From: Bacteroidales bacterium
GTDB taxonomy: Bacteria; Bacteroidota; Bacteroidia; Bacteroidales; UBA932
Length of the DNA stretch: 40,041 nucleotides
NCBI GenBank assembly: GCA_024398125.1
Contig: JAKSJO010000022.1
Span: 1-40,041 of the forward strand
Direction: 5' to 3'
The position numbers and the translations under genes are program-made. Shown here piece after piece: positions 856 to 9,484 of this stretch; position 1 is the first letter of the stretch; each line of letters starts with the position of its first letter. The notes beneath the pieces are model-generated. The model saw only the letters and a list, made by a program, of their open reading frames with translations. It ran no database searches and was not told the DNA's origin.

Positions 856-912
856 TTTCCTGAATGTTTTCACAACGGAATAATCCTTATTGTGATTTGC
901 TTTCAACTTTGT
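826..912 (-). ncRNA. tracrRNA of the type II-C CRISPR system
   Basis: This is the trans-activating RNA that pairs with the crRNA repeat and loads Cas9. On the minus strand the RNA begins with an anti-repeat (890-908, GTTGAAAGCAAATCACAAT). It is complementary to the first 19 nt of the repeat as read on the minus strand, with one G-U wobble at the end; ACAAA just before it can pair further after one bulged A. Next come AAGGATTATTCCGTTGTG, which resembles the nexus region of II-C tracrRNAs, and a GC-rich hairpin with a run of eight T. A perfect promoter lies just upstream, so the predicted RNA is about 87 nt. It is divergent from cas9. The ends are predicted from promoter and terminator, not measured. 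Confidence 0.9.
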
Positions 913-916
913 TTTG

Positions 917-947
917 CAAATATATCCAGACGAAAAGAGAAAAGCAA
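917..947 (-). promoter_or_regulatory. Promoter of the tracrRNA
   Basis: The minus strand reads TTG (945-947), 20 nt, TATATTTG (917-924), a full match to the Bacteroidota consensus. A start about 4-7 nt downstream puts the RNA 5' end right at the anti-repeat, which suggests a short primary tracrRNA that needs little or no 5' processing. Confidence 0.8.
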
Positions 948-985: not shown

Positions 986-3900
986 ATGAAGCGAATACTC
1001 GGACTTGATCTTGGATCCTCAAGCATTGGATGGGCTGTTGTGGATCTTGATTCAGATAAAAGAAGTATCGTCAACATGGGAAGCAGGATTATCCCGCTTA
1101 CCACGGATGATGAAAAACAGTTCACAAAAGGACAGGCAATCACAAAGAATGCCGACAGAACGTCTATGCGAACTGCAAGGAAAGGCTATGACCGTTATCA
1201 GATGAGACGGGCCAACCTGAAGGCCATTCTTGAAGATGCTGGGATCGTTCCGGTTGATATCGTGAAGCCGATTGACCTTTGGATGCTTCGGAGCAAGGCA
1301 GTTTCAGAGCGTATTGAATTGTCTGAACTTGGTCGCGTATTGCTTCATATCAACCAGAAGCGAGGCTATAAGTCGGGAAAGGAAGATTTCAACGACAGCT
1401 CAAAATCCAAGTATGTTCAAAGTGTAAACGAAAACTACAAGTATCTTGTTGATAATAACATGACACTTGGTCAGTATTTCTATGGAGAACTTCTTAAAGA
1501 TGGCGCTTTCCGCGTCAAGGACAGGGTGTATCCACGTATCGCATACATTTCCGAGTTTGATGCGATAATTGCTAAGCAGAGAGAGTTCTACCCCGATGTC
1601 CTTACGGATGCTTTTGTCAAAAGAGTCAAGGACGAGACAATTTTCTATCAGAGAAAGTTGAAATCGTGTAAACACCTTGTATCAGTTTGCGAATTCGAAA
1701 AGAAGGAGTACATAAAAGCCGATGGTACATCGATAGTGACAGGTCCGAAAGTGGCCCCGAAGTCATCTCCAGTTGCCCAGCTGTGCAAGGTTTGGGAGTT
1801 TGTGAATACCATAACGATCACAAACAAGTTAGGAGACCAGCTGTATTTATCTCCTGAACAGAAGATGGCTATAGCTGATTATCTCAAACGAAATGTCAGG
1901 ATAAAGGTTACTGAAGTACAAAAGATTCTTGGGATATCGAGGAAAGATGGATGGTGGATTGACAAGACCATCTCCCAGAGAAATGTAGGTGATTCCACAT
2001 ACGTAAGAATCGCGGAGGCTCTCGGAGGAAAGTATCCCGAACTTCTTAGAATGGAAGTTATCATTGACGATCTTCCCGATACATCTACAGGTGAGGTGCG
2101 ACTTGCAGTTTCGGAATCAATCAAGACGGAACCTCTGTTCCGGCTATGGCACACGATGTACTCGATATCGGACGAAGATGAACTTCGTAAAGCTCTGACC
2201 AGGAAATTCGGCATAACAGATGAAGACATATTGACAAATCTGTCGAGGATCGATTTCGTCAAGGATGCCTATTCGGGAAAGTCAAACACGGCAATGAGAA
2301 AGATACTTCCGTATCTCATGAAGGGATACGTATATTCCGATGCATGTGTCATGGCTGGCTATAATCATAGCAACTCTATCACCAAGGAAGAGAATCTAAA
2401 GCGTGAGCTTAAGACCAGGCTTGACCCGATCATGAAGGGTGAAATGCGTCAGCCTATTGTCGAGAAGATTCTGAATCAGACGATCAACGTGGTAAATGCC
2501 CTTATCGAACAATATGGAGCGTTTGATGAGATTCGAGTTGAGCTTGCCAGGTCGCTCAAGCAGAGTAGGGAAGAGAGGGAAAGGACCACAAGTGATATCT
2601 CCCGGAATGAACGAGAGAACAAGGTTGCTGCTGAGAAGGTCGCAGAATATGGTTTCACACCAACCAGGAACCGTATACTCAAGATGAAACTATGGGAGGA
2701 GACCCAGCATCTCTGTGTGTATTGCGGCCAGCCTGTGAGTGCAACGGAATTCCTGTCTGGTATCGATGTGGAAAAGGAACATATCATACCTAAGTCTCTA
2801 TTGTTTGATAACGGCTCAAGCAACGTTACCTGCGCATGCAGAAAGTGTAACCAGGAGAAAGGCAATAAGACAGCTTTCGACTTTATGAAATCGAAAGGTG
2901 ACGCAGAGTTCACAGATTATGCGGAGAGGGTAAAGTCTCTTTATGACAATAAGCAGATCCGCTGGTCAAAATATGACAAACTGATGATGTCCCAGGACTC
3001 TATTCCTACGGATTTCATAAACCGCCAGCTTCGCGAGACACAGTATGTTTCGAAGAAAGCAGTAGAGTTGCTTAAAGAAGTATGCTACAATGTGTGTGCT
3101 ACCAGTGGAAGTGTTACAGACTTCCTTCGCCATACATGGGGTTGGGATGAAGTTCTTCATGACCTTCATTTCGATCAGTATAAGGAGGCAGGATTGACCG
3201 AGATCAAAGAGGTCGCAACAAATGGGAATGTGAAGCAAGTTGAACGTATCAAGGGCTGGACGAAGCGTATGGATCACAGGCATCATGCAGTTGATGCCTT
3301 GGCGATAGCTTGTACGTCGCAGAGCATTATTCAGCAACTGAACACTCTCAGCACTCTGAAAGATGTTCCAAATTCCGGAATTGAATCGCAAGGAACACAG
3401 TTCAAGGAAAGGCATACCCGACTTGAGAAATACGTCCTTTCACAGCCTCACTTTACTACGGCAGAAGTCAGGGAGGCTGTAGAAAAGATTCTCATTTCCT
3501 TCAAGAGCGGAAAGAAGGTTGCAACACCAGGAAAGAGGTACGTTTATCAAGGTGGCAAGCGAGTTCTAAAGCAGAATACTCTTGTCCCTAGAGGTGCATT
3601 GTCGGAGCAGACTGTCTATGGCAAGATTTCTCTGAATGGAAAGGATGAGATTGTTGTTAAGCAGGCTGTTTCAAGCCTGGATTCAAAGAAGGCCGCCAAG
3701 ATAGTTGATGCTGCAATAAAGGCTATCATCCTTGATTATCTCGATAAACATAAAGGCAAGTTTGTAGAGAATGATCCTCCAAGGGACCATCAGGGCAATA
3801 TTATCAGATCGGTAAGGATTACGACTGGTTTGGATGCGGTCGTTCCTGTGCGTTACGATTCGAATGGTGAACCAATGGGTTTTGTGAAGCCGGGAAACAA

Positions 3901-4398
3901 CCACCACATCGCCTTGTATCGTGACAGGAAAGGAAAACTGCAGGAGAGTGTCGTAACCTTCTGGCATGCGGTTGAGAGGAAAAAGTACGGTCTCCCGGTT
4001 GTTATCAAGGATCCTTCAGGATGTCATGCTGAGCTCCCTGATAATCTGCCGGAATCATTCCTTGCTCAATTACCTGACCCGACATGGCAATTTGAGATGT
4101 CTCTGCAGTCAAATGAGATGTTCATTCTTGGCATGACTGAAGAGGAATATGATGATGCGATTGCTGCTGGCGAGTTCGCAAAGTTGAGTAAACATCTTTA
4201 CAGAGTTCAGAAACTTGCATCAATGTACTATGTTTTTCGACATCATTTGGAAACATCGGTTGATGATAAGATAAATGGTGAAAAAAATGAGAAGCTATCA
4301 ATGGCATTGGGTAAGTTTATTAGAATTACAAGTTTTGATAGTCTATATAGAATGAACCCAATAAAACTCACGATTTCCAACCTTGGCGAGATCAAGCC

Positions 4399-4402
<4 letters not shown>
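986..4402 (+). CDS. cas9: CRISPR-associated endonuclease Cas9, type II-C
   Basis: RNA-guided DNA endonuclease that cuts both target strands using tracrRNA and crRNA. The start at 986 gives MKRILGLDLGSSSIGW, the canonical RuvC-I beginning with D8 as first catalytic residue; an in-frame start at 965 would add seven residues and overlap the promoter. An Arg-rich bridge helix follows (near RTARKGYDRYQMRRANLKAI). RuvC-II has E519 (EIRVELARSLKQS). The HNH domain has CVYC and CRKC pairs around EHIIPKS with H599. RuvC-III has HHAVDALAIA with H767 and D770. All nuclease residues are present, so it should be active. At 1138 residues it is within the usual II-C range. It overlaps cas1 by 4 nt. Base composition is AT-richer than the housekeeping genes, consistent with horizontal transfer. 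Confidence 0.97.
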
Positions 4403-5678
<1,276 letters not shown>

Positions 5679-5693
5679 TGGTTATAGAGACGA

Positions 5694-5728
5694 AAAAATC
5701 AGGGCAACTGCCCTGATTTTTCTTTTTC
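5694..5728 (+). terminator. Intrinsic terminator after cas2
   Basis: A 13-bp perfect stem (AAAAATCAGGGCA with TGCCCTGATTTTT, two-base loop) is followed by TTCTTTTT. It has A- and T-rich flanks on both sides, so it can also stop minus-strand transcripts leaving the array. Confidence 0.85.
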
Positions 5729-5776
5729 TGAATAGCTAATCTAATTAATTGACTATCAGCTAAATCTTTGAATCCA

Positions 5777-7508
5777 GTTGTGACTGTATGTCAAAGTTAC
5801 AAATGTTGAAAGCAAATCACAACCTTTCTGTCGGTGGTTCTATTTATTATAATGTTGTGACTGTATGTCAAAGTTACAAATGTTGAAAGCAAATCACAAC
5901 TCACGCAAGGACATCAATAAGGCAAAGGGGTTGTGACTGTATGTCAAAGTTACAAATGTTGAAAGCAAATCACAACCATCGGAGCAGTGAGTGGTGCAAA
6001 TCCGACGTTGTGACTGTATGTCAAAGTTACAAATGTTGAAAGCAAATCACAACCGGTCAAGGCTCCATCCCGTTGGGGACTTGGTTGTGACTGTATGTCA
6101 AAGTTACAAATGTTGAAAGCAAATCACAACGGTCCTGGGCCACGGCCACGTCAATGGAGTGTTGTGACTGTATGTCAAAGTTACAAATGTTGAAAGCAAA
6201 TCACAACATCTTTCGTTCATAACTATTTCTCAATTGGTTGTGACTGTATGTCAAAGTTACAAATGTTGAAAGCAAATCACAACGGTATTTGATACAATCG
6301 CCTATTTTATAGGTTGTGACTGTATGTCAAAGTTACAAATGTTGAAAGCAAATCACAACCCCTACCGTCCGGGCGTACTATCTGTTACGTTGTGACTGTA
6401 TGTCAAAGTTACAAATGTTGAAAGCAAATCACAACATGCGGTTGTGACAATCTGGGCGGTCTTAGTTGTGACTGTATGTCAAAGTTACAAATGTTGAAAG
6501 CAAATCACAACTTGTACGCGCTGATGTTGTCCTTGAGGTCGTTGTGACTGTATGTCAAAGTTACAAATGTTGAAAGCAAATCACAACTCTCACGACCTAT
6601 GACAGCGTGGAGTGCGGTTGTGACTGTATGTCAAAGTTACAAATGTTGAAAGCAAATCACAACACCGGGATGGTCTTGCTTGTGCCGCCGCCGGGTTGTG
6701 ACTGTATGTCAAAGTTACAAATGTTGAAAGCAAATCACAACATACGACCACCACATCATTACATCGCCGTGTTGTGACTGTATGTCAAAGTTACAAATGT
6801 TGAAAGCAAATCACAACGGCGCTTCGTTTCCCCCTTCAGGACTTTGTGTTGTGACTGTATGTCAAAGTTACAAATGTTGAAAGCAAATCACAACGCTCCG
6901 TAAAAACAATAATATCCGTTAAACGTTGTGACTGTATGTCAAAGTTACAAATGTTGAAAGCAAATCACAACCGAGCGTGTCGCCGTTTTGCATCATTCTA
7001 AGTTGTGACTGTATGTCAAAGTTACAAATGTTGAAAGCAAATCACAACACCCTGGAGATGTAATCATTGACCCTTGCGTTGTGACTGTATGTCAAAGTTA
7101 CAAATGTTGAAAGCAAATCACAACAAATTGTAACGCCTGTTGATAATAAGGGTTGTTGTGACTGTATGTCAAAGTTACAAATGTTGAAAGCAAATCACAA
7201 CACAACGAAACCGTAATTGTTGTTGAACGTTGTTGTGACTGTATGTCAAAGTTACAAATGTTGAAAGCAAATCACAACAGCCCAGGGCTTCGCTCTGGGC
7301 GGTAGAGTGTTGTGACTGTATGTCAAAGTTACAAATGTTGAAAGCAAATCACAACGGTGGCGGCCCAATTCGTGCCAATGTTTGGTTGTGACTGTATGTC
7401 AAAGTTACAAATGTTGAAAGCAAATCACAACACCTAAAGGGTACAAGATACCAGGCAGCGAGTTGTGACTGTATGTCAAAGTTACAAATGTTGAAAGCAA
7501 ATCACAAC
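5777..7508 (-). CRISPR. Type II-C CRISPR array, 23 repeats of 47 nt and 22 spacers
   Basis: Repeats start at 5777, 5854, 5930, 6007, 6084, 6161, 6237, 6313, 6389, 6465, 6541, 6617, 6695, 6771, 6848, 6925, 7002, 7078, 7155, 7232, 7309, 7385 and 7462. I read all 23 as identical, including both terminal ones. As read on the plus strand the repeat begins GTTGTGACTGTATGTC and ends AAGCAAATCACAAC. Spacers are 30 nt (11), 29 nt (10) and 31 nt (1), all different. The strand is inferred from the tracrRNA: its anti-repeat pairs with the 5' half of the minus-strand repeat, which is the part kept in a mature type II crRNA. The conventional leader would then lie at 7509 and beyond, away from cas2. Because no terminal repeat is degenerate, the old end cannot be recognised from decay. 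Confidence 0.98.
5792..7507 (-). promoter_or_regulatory. Promoter embedded in every CRISPR repeat (23 copies)
   Basis: Within each repeat, plus-strand nt 16-23 (CAAAGTTA) and nt 44-46 (CAA) read on the minus strand as TTG, 20 nt, TAACTTTG. This is a full match to the Bacteroidota promoter consensus, in the direction of crRNA transcription. The start would fall in the last 9-12 nt of the repeat, so each promoter would give a crRNA precursor holding one spacer and the next repeat. Neisseria II-C arrays are known to use promoters inside repeats; here this is inferred from sequence only. Confidence 0.6.
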
Positions 7509-7762
7509 CCTATAACACCATTACTAGAAAAGAGAAGCAAATCTTGAAGTATAATTCAACCTTCAATTCAAATGCTCACTGTTTAGCCTTATATTTTGAA
7601 GACTCGATACTCATCTATCGGTCTTGCAAAAACAATTCGCAACTACTTTGAAACCATCACAGAAGCCCAGGAAGTCATTGTCTTCAAAGGGAAAATAATG
7701 ATTACAGTCACTCGTGGACGAATTGGAAAGTCGTTTGAGAGAGACTTTTGTAAAGAATATAC

Positions 7763-7796
7763 AAAAAAATAAATAGACCTCGAAGAGGTCTATTTA
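7763..7796 (-). terminator. Intrinsic terminator of short unit C
   Basis: TAAATAGACCTC and GAGGTCTATTTA form a 12-bp stem with a GAA/TTC loop (7770-7796). On the minus strand it is followed by seven T; on the plus strand no T-run follows, so it works for the minus strand. Confidence 0.8.
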
Positions 7797-7856
7797 TGAG
7801 ATGGTTATCTGTAGTTCCACCTCTCCACGAAAACTTACGGGTAGTCATTTCTGACA
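7763..7856 (-). ncRNA. Candidate short transcript (unit C), about 90 nt
   Basis: A consensus promoter (7860-7889) and a strong terminator (7763-7796) bound about 90 nt on the minus strand. An ATG at 7848 opens a frame starting MTTRKFSWRGG, but it has no stop before the terminator T-run, so the product is more likely RNA than protein. It does not match an RNA family I can name. It runs in the same direction as the crRNAs and ends before the array. Confidence 0.35.
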
Positions 7857-7859
7857 ACG

Positions 7860-7889
7860 CAAATATAGTTACTATCTCTGAACAACCAA
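7860..7889 (-). promoter_or_regulatory. Promoter of short unit C
   Basis: The minus strand reads TTG (7887-7889), 19 nt, TATATTTG (7860-7867). The -33 box overlaps the T-run of the terminator of the preceding unit, so the two units are packed tail to head. Confidence 0.6.
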
Positions 7890-7915
7890 AAAGTCCGGCC
7901 ATCTGACCGGACTTT
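7888..7915 (-). terminator. Intrinsic terminator of short unit B
   Basis: AAAGTCCGG and CCGGACTTT form a 9-bp stem around an 8-nt loop (7890-7915). On the minus strand five T close the structure. It begins 4 nt after the stop codon of the frame in unit B. Confidence 0.75.
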
Positions 7916-7919
7916 AATA

Positions 7920-8102
7920 CTATTTCTTTTTCTTCTTCTGACCGACGCCTATATGAAGCGAGTCATTAAGAACCGTATGGCGAACGGAGATGCCATCGAC
8001 GAAGTATGGCTTCGAAATGAAGATGGTTCAATCAAAAGACTCATAAAAAAGTTTGCGAGGCGTATGAAACGTCTCGCATTCTGGCAGCGAATCGGTAGTC
8101 AT
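7920..8102 (-). pseudogene. Small interrupted frame (unit B), 60 codons with an internal TGA
   Basis: A single minus-strand frame runs from an ATG at 8102 to a TAG at 7920-7922 and is broken only by a TGA at codon 25 (8028-8030). The first part reads MTTDSLPECETFHTPRKLFY; the second contains KPYFVDGISVRHTVLNDSLH and ends GVGQKKKKK right before an intrinsic terminator. Position, terminator and codon choice suggest a real small gene that suffered a nonsense change, for example TGG to TGA. A hairpin with a distal T-run (8045-8077) lies inside the frame and could stop part of the transcripts. I recognise no family. The antisense strand holds an uninterrupted 50-codon frame (7953-8105), which I think less likely because it lacks its own signals. 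Confidence 0.3.
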
Positions 8103-8122
8103 TAGCTACGGAATCGCTAGTG

Positions 8123-8130
8123 CAAATATA
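8123..8130 (-). promoter_or_regulatory. Possible promoter of short unit B (-7 element)
   Basis: TATATTTG on the minus strand lies 20 nt before the ATG of unit B. The -33 position reads TGT instead of TTG, so the promoter is weaker than that of unit C. Confidence 0.4.
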
Positions 8131-8159
8131 GCAATTATTTTCAATAACATACACCTCCT

Positions 8160-8198
8160 AAAAAAGAATCCGCCATCCCTTCATCAGAGGTGGCGGAT
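8160..8198 (-). terminator. Intrinsic terminator downstream of the solitary repeat
   Basis: ATCCGCCA and TGGCGGAT form the stem (8168-8198); on the minus strand TCTTTTTT follows. It closes a unit of about 200 nt that would start in the solitary repeat. Confidence 0.75.
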
Positions 8199-8356
8199 CA
8201 TCTTTCAATACTTCTTTATTTCCTCGCTATTACACATTCCTTCTCCATGGCTATCCCGCTTGACAGTCATCAGTGAGGGCGCGGTTGACCTTGAAGCGGT
8301 AGACCTCGATGTTGTACACGATGCCCTCATGGTCATGGTTGGATATCGAGCTTGTG

Positions 8357-8404
8357 GTTGTGACTGTATGTCAAAGTTACGAAATGCTGAAAGCAAATCA
8401 CAAC
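8357..8404 (-). repeat. Solitary degenerate CRISPR repeat
   Basis: A 48-nt copy of the array repeat, differing by one inserted G (8381) and one T-to-C change (8387), lies 848 nt beyond the last array repeat. No second repeat is near it. The minus-strand promoter is retained as TTG (8401-8403), 21 nt, TAACTTTG (8372-8379), and the 19-nt tracr-pairing part has one mismatch. A crRNA made from it would take its guide from 8405-8434. It may be a remnant of a longer array or a regulatory element. Confidence 0.9.
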
Positions 8405-8452
8405 AAATACTCCTGGAGCGATTCGTATAAGCGGAAGCATTATTGTTTAATG

Positions 8453-8483
8453 GAAAAATGAAACGAATCCGTTTCGATTTTTC
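8453..8483. promoter_or_regulatory. Long imperfect palindrome upstream of the toxin operon
   Basis: GAAAAATGAAACG and CGTTTCGATTTTTC pair with one bulged base around AATC. The palindrome ends exactly at the -33 box of the toxin promoter. A- and T-rich arms make it a possible bidirectional terminator; the position also suits an operator for the MqsA-like repressor. Confidence 0.5.
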
Positions 8484-8514
8484 TTGCTTATGGGGCTATT
8501 CTTTCCTATATTTG
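8484..8514 (+). promoter_or_regulatory. Promoter of the toxin-antitoxin-chaperone operon
   Basis: TTG (8484-8486), 20 nt and TATATTTG (8507-8514) match the Bacteroidota consensus fully. This places the transcription start near 8520 and rules out the possible upstream start at 8484 for the first gene. Confidence 0.75.
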
Positions 8515-8531
8515 CAAACCAAACGACGATT

Positions 8532-8924
8532 ATGGCCGGGAATAGAGCGACAAGGGAAGATGTGGAGGCTTTCTTGAATGAATTCAAGGAGAAGGCAAAG
8601 GTCTTCGGCATAGTATACAATGAAGGCAAAGGAGAGAACAGGCAGACGCTTTTAGACCTGGAACTATTTGGAAGCAAGCGAGACCAATACATACTGAATC
8701 TAAGACCGGAAGACTATTACCAAGGCCCCGATGAAAATGACTATGACAAAGAAGAGGGGCCTGTATGGATGTTTGGAATAGGTATCAAAAAAAGAGGGAA
8801 AAAGAAGAAGCTGCCGATTTACATCAAGATATATATTACCAAGGCCGAGGGTGCATCCAATTATTGCGTTTCCTTCCATGTGGCAAAATTTGAGATGTCG
8901 TTCCCATATAAAACAGAGTTATGA
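8532..8924 (+). CDS. MqsR-like toxin of a type II toxin-antitoxin system
   Basis: Predicted mRNA interferase, growth-inhibiting unless bound by the downstream antitoxin. The 130 residues follow the MqsR layout: a helical N-terminus (REDVEAFLNEFKEKAKVFGI), then ILNLRPEDYYQGP, VWMFGIGI, LPIYIKIYI and CVSFHVAKFEMSFPYK. These correspond to the L-x-x-x-DFY, tryptophan, Y-[IL]-K-I and VSF blocks of E. coli MqsR. The Lys of YIKI matches a residue implicated in MqsR catalysis. The start at 8532 is chosen because the promoter ends at 8514. The stop overlaps the antitoxin start (ATGA), so translation is coupled, and toxin-first order is that of mqsRA. The assignment rests on pattern and context, not on a search. 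Confidence 0.6.
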   Translation: MAGNRATREDVEAFLNEFKEKAKVFGIVYNEGKGENRQTLLDLELFGSKRDQYILNLRPEDYYQGPDENDYDKEEGPVWMFGIGIKKRGKKKKLPIYIKIYITKAEGASNYCVSFHVAKFEMSFPYKTEL

Positions 8925-9484
8925 GAAGTCCATTCACAGGCGGAAACGTCATAAAGAAGTCAAGATACGAAACATATACTTTCAGGAACGAAGAGTATAC
9001 TATCCTTGCCTATTATTTTGAATGCGAGGATACCGGAAAGACCTTCACGAATGCTGAGGTTGACGATCAGATGATGAATGATGTGTATAACCAGTATCGT
9101 AAGCGCCATGGTATACCTTCTCCATCTGAGCTGAAGGATCTCAGGGGGAAATATGGATTATCCGCTCACGTAATGTCCAAGATTGCAGGCATTGGAATCA
9201 ACCAGTACGGACTTTACGAAAATGGCGAAATGCCTACTGTCATTGTCGGACAGAAGCTTTCCACTCTTTTTGAGAAAGAATCGCTCCTTAAAAGCATTGA
9301 TGGAGCTCGCGTCAGATTGGGTAAGAATTATGAACGAATCAGAGAAAAGGTTCAGTCATATGCTGAGCCTCGGTCATTCAAACTCGCCAAGGTTTACTAT
9401 CCCCAATTCGACGAGCTTATTCCATTGACATCTCCTGCAATCGCCTTTCCGATAAGAAAATCGAGGTGGGCAACGTGCCGATAA
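8921..9484 (+). CDS. MqsA-like antitoxin with HTH domain and C-terminal extension
   Basis: Predicted antitoxin that binds the toxin through its N-terminus and the operon DNA through a helix-turn-helix. The N-terminal domain (MRSPFTGG ... TYTFRNEEYTI ... YYFECEDTG) matches the fold pattern of MqsA, but the zinc-binding CxxC pairs are lost (SPFTG, CEDTG). The XRE-type helix-turn-helix is clear near residues 75-110 (LRGKYGLSAHVMSKIAGIGI then QYGLYENGEMP). At 187 residues it is about 55 longer than E. coli MqsA. In known toxin-antitoxin-chaperone systems such an extension is the chaperone-addiction segment, which fits the SecB-like gene 18 nt downstream. Overlaps the toxin gene by 4 nt. Confidence 0.65.
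   Translation: MRSPFTGGNVIKKSRYETYTFRNEEYTILAYYFECEDTGKTFTNAEVDDQMMNDVYNQYRKRHGIPSPSELKDLRGKYGLSAHVMSKIAGIGINQYGLYENGEMPTVIVGQKLSTLFEKESLLKSIDGARVRLGKNYERIREKVQSYAEPRSFKLAKVYYPQFDELIPLTSPAIAFPIRKSRWATCR

Follow-up and report, generated by a model that had tools for sequence, protein, structure and literature searches.

A Bacteroidota-type promoter box inside the repeats of a type II-C CRISPR array and in most related long repeats

Introduction

How are the guide RNAs of a type II-C clustered regularly interspaced short palindromic repeats (CRISPR) array transcribed when the array reads towards its own cas2 gene and its probable leader? The question is raised by a 40,041-nt stretch of a Bacteroidales bacterium (GenBank assembly GCA_024398125.1, contig JAKSJO010000022.1; this whole stretch is called the window), in which an array at positions 5777 to 7508 has the minus strand as its CRISPR RNA (crRNA) strand. 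We found that each repeat of this array carries, in the crRNA direction, the -7 box of sigma-ABfr promoters, and that the same box is kept in most related arrays, so that each guide RNA is probably made from its own promoter with a start inside the repeat. Judging from the sequence, we consider it quite likely that each repeat acts as a sigma-ABfr-type promoter and that every spacer has its own primary transcript.

A promoter pattern in every repeat

On the crRNA strand, each repeat reads GTTGTGATTTGCTTTCAACATTTGTAACTTTGACATACAGTCACAAC, with a TTG at repeat positions 2-4 and, 20 nt further on, the box TAACTTTG at positions 25-32, a 6/6 match to the sigma-ABfr -7 consensus TAnnTTTG. As the first-pass annotation had stated, TTG-N20-TAACTTTG was found on the minus strand in 23/23 repeats. 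The general form TTG-N20-TAnnTTTG occurs 26 times in the window, compared with 0.32 expected in shuffles, and 23 of these occurrences are the minus-strand sites of the repeats, one in each. Since the 23 repeats are copies of one sequence, they make up one test and not 23 independent ones, and relatives were therefore compared. The box of the family members in loci L215 and L246, TATCTTTG, differs from that of the window in the two nn bases only. The same annotation had also seen the arrangement at the promoters of a trans-activating CRISPR RNA (tracrRNA), a toxin and a decarboxylase; we find it at the tracrRNA gene (917-947, minus) and also in front of the gene at 8532 (8484-8514, plus), but the decarboxylase promoter was not identified.

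In order to place the transcription start, we used the rule from Flavobacterium psychrophilum, in which the mapped box lies at -12 to -5 (PMC9723704; published work is cited here from excerpts of the papers); in Bacteroides thetaiotaomicron, a species for which no CRISPR is annotated, the promoter elements are centred at -7 and -33 (PMC7366714, section 8). By this rule, the predicted +1 is repeat position 37, an A, which lies 11 nt before the spacer and thus within the last 9-12 nt of the repeat, where the start had been proposed. The box itself ends 15 nt before the spacer, and the repeat ends in GTCACAAC; an extended -10 at the repeat 3' end with a start inside the spacer is not found in the window repeat. 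Sigma-70 promoters were considered and rejected, as a scan of 5600-8560 gave 5 sites against 7.3 expected, none of them repeat-wide. The array and the promoter candidates of its repeats are as follows.

5777 to 7508, minus strand: type II-C CRISPR array, 23 identical 47-nt repeats and 22 spacers
5792 to 5822, minus strand: repeat promoter 23, leader-proximal, with no spacer after it; box 5792-5799, predicted +1 at 5787
5869 to 5899, minus strand: repeat promoter 22, predicted +1 at 5864
5945 to 5975, minus strand: repeat promoter 21, predicted +1 at 5940
6022 to 6052, minus strand: repeat promoter 20, predicted +1 at 6017
6099 to 6129, minus strand: repeat promoter 19, predicted +1 at 6094
6176 to 6206, minus strand: repeat promoter 18, predicted +1 at 6171
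6252 to 6282, minus strand: repeat promoter 17, predicted +1 at 6247
6328 to 6358, minus strand: repeat promoter 16, predicted +1 at 6323
6404 to 6434, minus strand: repeat promoter 15, predicted +1 at 6399
6480 to 6510, minus strand: repeat promoter 14, predicted +1 at 6475
6556 to 6586, minus strand: repeat promoter 13, predicted +1 at 6551
6632 to 6662, minus strand: repeat promoter 12, predicted +1 at 6627
6710 to 6740, minus strand: repeat promoter 11, predicted +1 at 6705
6786 to 6816, minus strand: repeat promoter 10, predicted +1 at 6781
6863 to 6893, minus strand: repeat promoter 9, predicted +1 at 6858
6940 to 6970, minus strand: repeat promoter 8, predicted +1 at 6935
7017 to 7047, minus strand: repeat promoter 7, predicted +1 at 7012
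7093 to 7123, minus strand: repeat promoter 6, predicted +1 at 7088
7170 to 7200, minus strand: repeat promoter 5, predicted +1 at 7165
7247 to 7277, minus strand: repeat promoter 4, predicted +1 at 7242
7324 to 7354, minus strand: repeat promoter 3, predicted +1 at 7319
7400 to 7430, minus strand: repeat promoter 2, predicted +1 at 7395
7477 to 7507, minus strand: repeat promoter 1, leader-distal, predicted +1 at 7472

From this pattern we infer both promoter activity and the exact start site. RNA polymerase would read the -7 box at repeat positions 25-32, with the TTG at 2-4 in the -33 place, and would start at about repeat position 37, giving one primary transcript for each of the 22 spacers. 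Such a transcript would consist of 11 nt of repeat 3' end, the spacer and the next repeat, which would pair with the tracrRNA and be cut there, the 3' cut presumably being made by RNase III; the 11-nt 5' end may or may not be trimmed. In the single example folded, the predicted crRNA 5' end GUCACAAC is able to pair back with the following repeat, enclosing the spacer (z -2.7).

Conservation of the box in related arrays

We examined whether the box is kept in relatives by collecting loci through type II Cas1 (TIGR03639), which was over the cut-off in 59/395 genomes at the level of the phylum, 84/395 of the class and 141/393 of the order; the genomes may overlap in species. From part of these matches, 209 loci were fetched (L039-L247, some regions duplicating earlier loci), of which 158 held arrays and 51 did not (contig ends, short arrays), the same-genus locus L243 among the latter. 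Each Cas1 search contributed at most 30 loci, to which 60 regions of the phylum, 40 of the class and 60 of the order were added, so that the class and the order are covered in part. A second set, of named genomes, was found through Cas1 alignment and not through repeats, and 16 of its 80 loci were without a usable array. Arrays were oriented by the 5' signature GTTGTGATTTG, of which the box is not a part, and their direction was compared with the cas1 strand; tracrRNA anti-repeats back this orientation in 61 loci read against cas and in 2/7 read with cas. Three loci whose repeats could not be oriented were left out (L060, with a 33-nt repeat, L212 and, in the second set, L368). The relatives are classed as type II by their Cas1.

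Among the 155 unique long repeats (45-57 nt) of Bacteroidia type II arrays read against cas, TAnnTTTG starting at positions 22-28 was perfect in 101 and matched at least 5/6 in 143, while shuffles gave about 1 and about 10 per cent, respectively. This pool excludes L356 (Ignavibacteriota, 4/6) and L372 (labelled Eubacteriales, 6/6). The earlier expectation that the box is conserved across II-C-like repeats is thus borne out for long Bacteroidia repeats. In the long repeats of Bacteroidales read against cas, the box was perfect at 22-27 in 50/57 and at least 5/6 in 53/57 (0.58 and 6.66 in shuffles of the stretch from position 18 to the repeat end); in those of other Bacteroidia, the counts were 15/42 and 34/42 (0.32 and 4.15), and in other classes of the phylum 1/11 and 5/11 (0.14 and 1.86). 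On the reverse strand, no perfect box was found in any of the six repeat groups. The second set contributed 62 unique long repeats, 58 of them new, with 36 at 6/6, 19 at 5/6 and 3 at 4/6, and includes Phocaeicola, Parabacteroides (with P. massiliensis, L357), Bacteroides faecis (L374), Chryseobacterium and Riemerella anatipestifer CCUG25054 (with TATCTTTG). A motif-free search returned TAnnTTTG as the commonest pattern of the form XXnnXXXX, in 11 of 29 cluster representatives, the next pattern being found in 5. Further cas1 genes of the phylum, below the type II cut-off and of unassigned type, served as a control; of 20 loci around them, 15 held arrays (16 arrays), one of which had a 6/6 box on either strand.

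The spacing from TTG to TA is 18 or 19 nt in 100 of the 143 relatives with a box of at least 5/6, compared with N20 in the window repeat. In the relatives, 8-13 nt of repeat (mode 12) would remain downstream of the predicted start. Among 54 Bacteroidales repeats, 70 per cent have a T at the predicted -1, while at +1 61 per cent have A and 22 per cent have G, a base context that suits a start at this place.

Two small groups of arrays stand apart in their repeats or layout. Loci L165, L206, L336 and L368 form a long-repeat subfamily in which GCTTAAAAAG replaces GCTTTCAA; the three that can be scored have no 5/6 box at 22-28, and L336 has GATATTTG at position 35. In L158 and L159, the array is located upstream of cas1 instead of behind cas2; it is on the cas strand, and its 47-nt repeats hold TTCTTTTG (5/6) at position 25.

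Changes in the box between sister repeats

To follow changes in the box between closely related repeats, 46 independent sister pairs differing at 2-8 sites were compared, with the box position chosen by best match. The six consensus bases had changed in 5/276 cases and the nn bases in 7/92. On the two sides of the box, the stretch from the tracrRNA duplex to the box had changed in 29/279 and the stretch from the box to the last six bases in 100/444, while the tracrRNA-pairing part had changed in 29/782. By Fisher's test, the box differs from nn (p = 0.013), from the stretch before it (p = 2e-5) and from the stretch after it (p = 3e-17). With the position set by a single member of each pair, 10/552 changes were counted in the box and 14/184 in nn. 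In pairs with up to 20 differences the contrast shrinks (48/438 and 36/146), perhaps because register shifts are counted as changes.

These counts bear on the explanation that the repeats are alike by common descent only, with no selection on the box. The repeats are indeed homologous and, at 65 per cent, fall into 29 clusters, as this would have it; but both flanks of the box diverge while the consensus bases hardly do, and we regard the chance that inheritance alone accounts for the box as negligible.

The tracrRNA gene and pairing with the repeat

The tracrRNA gene of the window lies on the minus strand and consists of the following elements.

917 to 947, minus strand: tracrRNA promoter TTG-N20-TATATTTG, predicted +1 at 912
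890 to 905, minus strand: tracrRNA anti-repeat, 16 nt, followed by TAAGGATTATTCCGTTGTG

The anti-repeat continues as TAAGG...CCGTTGTG. Such genes were found in 61/102 Bacteroidia long-repeat loci, in 61/61 cases opposite to cas9, after filtering out same-strand rows, which are repeat copies and not tracrRNAs, from the pairing mean given below. A -7 box lies 12-32 nt before the anti-repeat, with 6/6 in 38/61 and at least 5/6 in 57/61, and the predicted tracrRNA start falls mostly 4-7 nt before the anti-repeat. It follows from this predicted start that pairing would reach from repeat position 2 to about 20-24 at most, which is short of or just reaches the box, so that the box is predicted to lie outside the duplex.

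The box could also be kept for reasons of RNA, either tracrRNA pairing or contact with Cas9. The 5' part of the repeat is strongly kept in just this way, as its count of changes indicates, and in 11/61 tracrRNA loci the DNA 5' of the anti-repeat pairs with the repeat more than 0.15 above shuffled sequence. Over all 61 loci, though, the mean match of this DNA to the repeat is 0.45 compared with 0.42 for shuffles, and the predicted tracrRNA ends short of or just at the box. Pairing with the tracrRNA was therefore rejected as the cause of box conservation, and RNA reasons as a whole appear highly improbable.

Layout of the locus and transcription from outside the array

Cas9, a type II Cas1, Cas2 and the tracrRNA with its anti-repeat, as expected of a type II-C system, are all present. 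The genes and the features on the cas2 side of the array are listed here.

986 to 4402, plus strand: cas9, 1138 aa (TIGR01865, 512 bits, over the cut-off)
4399 to 5346, plus strand: cas1, type II (TIGR03639, 300 bits, over the cut-off)
5346 to 5678, plus strand: cas2 (TIGR01573, 76 bits, over the cut-off; scanned from 5349)
5694 to 5721, plus strand: terminator-like hairpin, end of the cas operon
5679 to 5776, no strand assigned: probable leader (integration side), by analogy; the gap from cas2 to the array, where crRNA transcription would end up

The array reads on the minus strand towards cas2, whose end lies 98 nt away with no gene, csn2 and cas4 included, between. In 94 of the 103 Bacteroidia arrays that were measured, the distance from the array to the cas2 match is 60-200 nt. 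By analogy with R. anatipestifer, the leader used for integration is most likely the stretch next to cas2, at 5679-5776 and downstream of crRNA transcription; as transcription runs towards it, the leader would not be the promoter of the array. The far flank, upstream in the sense of crRNA transcription, holds three further features.

7860 to 7889, minus strand: perfect -7 promoter TTG-N19-TATATTTG, predicted +1 at 7855
7769 to 7797, minus strand: strong terminator-like hairpin and T tract, 13-bp stem, -15.8 kcal/mol, z -6.2
7890 to 7915, minus strand: second terminator-like hairpin, upstream of the 7860-7889 promoter

The first-pass annotation had seen no promoter in the conventional leader position. 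This has to be restated, given that the leader is most likely on the cas2 side and that the upstream flank does hold a perfect-box promoter at 7860-7889, with a hairpin (7797-7769) between it and the array; no other perfect box was found in the 490 nt upstream on the crRNA strand. Read-through from this promoter would be stopped at the hairpin, where termination is predicted.

Arrays of other type II systems use a long precursor crRNA (pre-crRNA). One long pre-crRNA could likewise arise here from a leader-distal promoter and be processed by RNase III, with the boxes in the repeats weak or silent. The perfect-box promoter 350 nt upstream would suit this, as would an imperfect promoter, TTG-N18-AAGATTTG, about 30 nt upstream of the array (box 7545-7538), which could, going by its sequence, add transcripts from outside the array; its box is one of three 5/6 boxes between the hairpin and the array. 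Terminators on the upstream side are not general: they were found in 5/50 flanks, compared with 25/102 on the cas2 side, so that terminator insulation was rejected as a general rule and the hairpin of the window is locus-specific. In this locus, the 13-bp hairpin and T tract do separate the perfect-box promoter from the array. Among Bacteroidia arrays, the upstream flank was long enough for analysis in 51/103, and a full promoter pair was present in 6 of these (0.91 in shuffles), two of the six (L137 and L244) being array-type repeats themselves. A single precursor of this kind therefore seems quite unlikely.

Position of the box and direction of the array

When long repeats of other classes are included, 18/166 are without a 5/6 box at positions 22-28. 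A box at 30-36 was found in 8 of these 18, compared with 4 of the 148 others (p = 1e-6); six of the eight shifted boxes lie at 31-32, and three of the eight come from other classes. The repeat has two TTGs, at 2-4 and 9-11, whose distance agrees with the usual shift of 7-8 nt, and from these sequences the box seems to move rather than vanish.

The 36-nt repeats differ from the long ones. In those of Bacteroidia read against cas, a perfect box at 22-28 was found in 0/16 and a 5/6 box in 6/14, and it was also absent at 22-28 from the 13 unique 36-nt Bacteroidales repeats of arrays read with cas. An end resembling the -7 box (A32, T35, T36) is present in 10/16 Bacteroidia and 9/16 other-class 36-nt repeats read against cas and in 1/13 read with cas; this end is suggestive only, since the commonest Bacteroidia ending, GATATT, matches TAnnTT poorly. 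The proposal that the box may be a general property of the phylum therefore holds for Bacteroidia long repeats, where it is widespread, but not for 36-nt repeats, for other classes (1/11 perfect) or for arrays read with cas.

In the 13 arrays read with cas, whose leader lies upstream, a -7 box pointing into the array was found within the 300 nt before it in 11/13 (1.39 in shuffles) and a full promoter pair in 6/13 (0.08 in shuffles). In contrast, the same cas2-side stretch, read in the same direction, of 57 Bacteroidales arrays read against cas has a -7 box in 3 (8.28 in shuffles) and a full pair in none. With the box in the leader of arrays read with cas and in the repeat of those read against it, the promoter seems to be located in one or the other.

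As a tentative extension, to which we lean less than to its opposite, Bacteroidota II-C repeats might hold a movable promoter with two registers, from which repeat length, crRNA 5' ends and array orientation would follow. In the first register, with the box at 22-28 and the TTG at 2-4, the crRNA would be born with a repeat-derived 5' tag of 8-13 nt, which in the one predicted fold encloses the spacer by pairing with the following repeat and would need trimming or toleration. In the second, with the box at 30-36 and the TTG at 9-11 (the array of L131 would be an example), the start would shift so far that it falls at the end of the repeat or within the spacer, as is the case in Campylobacter. 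If so, the register would set both repeat length (46-48 or 36 nt) and crRNA 5' ends, and a promoter in the repeat or in the leader would set the orientation of the array.

Weighing the evidence

Several observations count against a promoter in each repeat, along with the imperfect upstream promoter and the 11 strongly pairing tracrRNA loci described above. The TTG at 2-4 is shared by the terminal inverted repeat and by the tracrRNA duplex, at its edge; the -33 element therefore cannot be separated from that inverted repeat, and conservation of the TTG proves nothing for it. The purine at the predicted +1 is not unique, as purines make up 85 per cent at +4 and +5 too, and +1 is a purine in 57 per cent of 35 other Bacteroidia repeats and in 37/55 of the second set. 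The box is also not universal: after clustering at 65 per cent, 11/29 representatives are perfect and 21/29 at least 5/6, which is still over shuffles (0.23 and 2.67), and 3/57 Bacteroidales repeats reach 4/6 at best. In the sister-pair test, choosing the position by best match favours low counts; the median was 15 changes for 29 permuted motifs, 5 of which had 5 or fewer, and 23 for 500 random motifs, 8 of which had 5 or fewer. The low-scoring permuted motifs probably settle on the same stretch as the box. Furthermore, the arrays read with cas form one clade on the Cas1 tree (167 rows), which makes them a single evolutionary contrast, and their orientation rests on the repeat signature, a tracrRNA-like anti-repeat with AAGG after it fitting in 2/7 loci and being absent in 5.

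The nn bases bring in a further explanation. They are TC in 55/66 repeats, compared with 13/184 other TTG-TAnnTTTG sites and 4/38 tracrRNA promoters, and this bias could mean either that TATCTTTG has a preferred strength or that it is also constrained by something else that reads it, for example Cas1-Cas2. In other CRISPR types, integration is guided by motifs within the repeat. TATCTTTG could thus be kept as a DNA anchor for Cas1-Cas2 or a host factor in spacer integration, its likeness to a promoter being secondary, and the presence of the box does cluster on the Cas1 tree. Against such an anchor, the six kept bases are those of the sigma consensus and nn changes more in sister pairs, the shift to 30-36, mostly to 31-32 with the second TTG at 9-11, fits a promoter better than a fixed ruler, and the related Cas1 of the clade read with cas goes with box-less repeats. 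We thus consider an integration anchor unlikely, and a promoter in each repeat remains our preferred explanation.

Neighbouring sequences of the window

Beyond the array, a solo repeat was found on the same strand.

8357 to 8404, minus strand: solo 48-nt repeat keeping TTG-N21-TAACTTTG

No further repeat adjoins this one, which is 850 nt away from the array and could be a relic or the source of a short RNA. The region between array and solo repeat (7500-8360) contains short open reading frame pieces and hairpins, which, at a guess from reading the sequence, may be remnants of genes or mobile elements. Further on, a gene pair (8532-8924 and 8921-9484, plus strand) lies downstream of the TTG-N20-TATATTTG promoter at 8484-8514. 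The product of 8921-9484 matches an MqsA-like antitoxin model at 56.6 bits, slightly below the NCBIfam cut-off of 61.8, and that of 8532-8924 gave no match in NCBIfam or PADLOC.

Comparison with known systems

Zhang 2013 reportedly found the crRNAs of Neisseria meningitidis to be processing-independent. Excerpts of other papers describe them in the same way (PMC7038990, PMC5006608, PMC8092290). The array of the window resembles this system in its probable repeat-embedded promoter and in that transcription would begin inside the array and run in the direction of the variable end, but the Neisseria element is an extended -10 within the final nine nt of the repeat, and the sigma consensus and the start differ. 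The suggestion that this array works like that of Neisseria with another sigma consensus is consistent with the embedded sigma-ABfr -7 box, its crRNA direction and its conservation; the predicted start, however, lies in the repeat and would leave an 11-nt repeat-derived 5' end, so the processing-free part of the idea does not follow.

Repeat promoters in II-C arrays were thus already known. They have been inferred for Clostridium cellulolyticum, and in the same phylum a repeat-encoded promoter with transcription towards the variable end has been proposed for Flavobacterium (PMC8092290, PMC10309648): Hoikkala 2021 proposed the TTG of the F. columnare repeat, with eight reads on the array, and a 2023 paper repeats this for F. 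psychrophilum. In the excerpts of these papers only the TTG, 33-35 bp upstream of the spacer, is named, with no -7 box in the repeat, and the F. columnare repeats are numbered to base 36 and so do not belong to the long class. The CRISPR1 array of R. anatipestifer is alike in its 47-nt repeats and in a leader between cas2 and the array, and the excerpted text of the 2016 paper, which names BDGP as predictor, reports that no potential repeat promoters were found (PMC5006608, PMC6008519); in the R. anatipestifer locus examined here (L329), the 46-nt repeat holds TATCTTTG. Promoter finders of the sigma-70 style miss the Bacteroidota repeat box. For the II-C array of B. fragilis, the excerpts state that no leader could be assigned. 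In the open-licence PMC literature, as far as its excerpts show, no report of a TAnnTTTG box inside II-C repeats was found. Within that literature, what is new here is the finding of a conserved -7 box in long repeats, together with the predicted start within the repeat, the two proposed registers and the contrast between array orientations.

The closest parallel is Campylobacter jejuni, where differential RNA sequencing placed a promoter in each II-C repeat (PMC3656092). Both systems have one promoter per repeat in the crRNA direction (a predicted one in the window), a tracrRNA and three Cas proteins. In C. jejuni, an extended -10 (GGTAAAAT) lies at the repeat 3' end and transcription starts at spacer position 5 (PMC3656092), whereas in the window a Bacteroidota -7 box occupies the middle of the repeat and transcription is predicted to start before the repeat ends. 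The predicted crRNA 5' ends therefore differ from those of Campylobacter, and the phylum-specific box provides a strand rule for reading arrays and makes crRNA biogenesis in gut and environmental bacteria directly testable.

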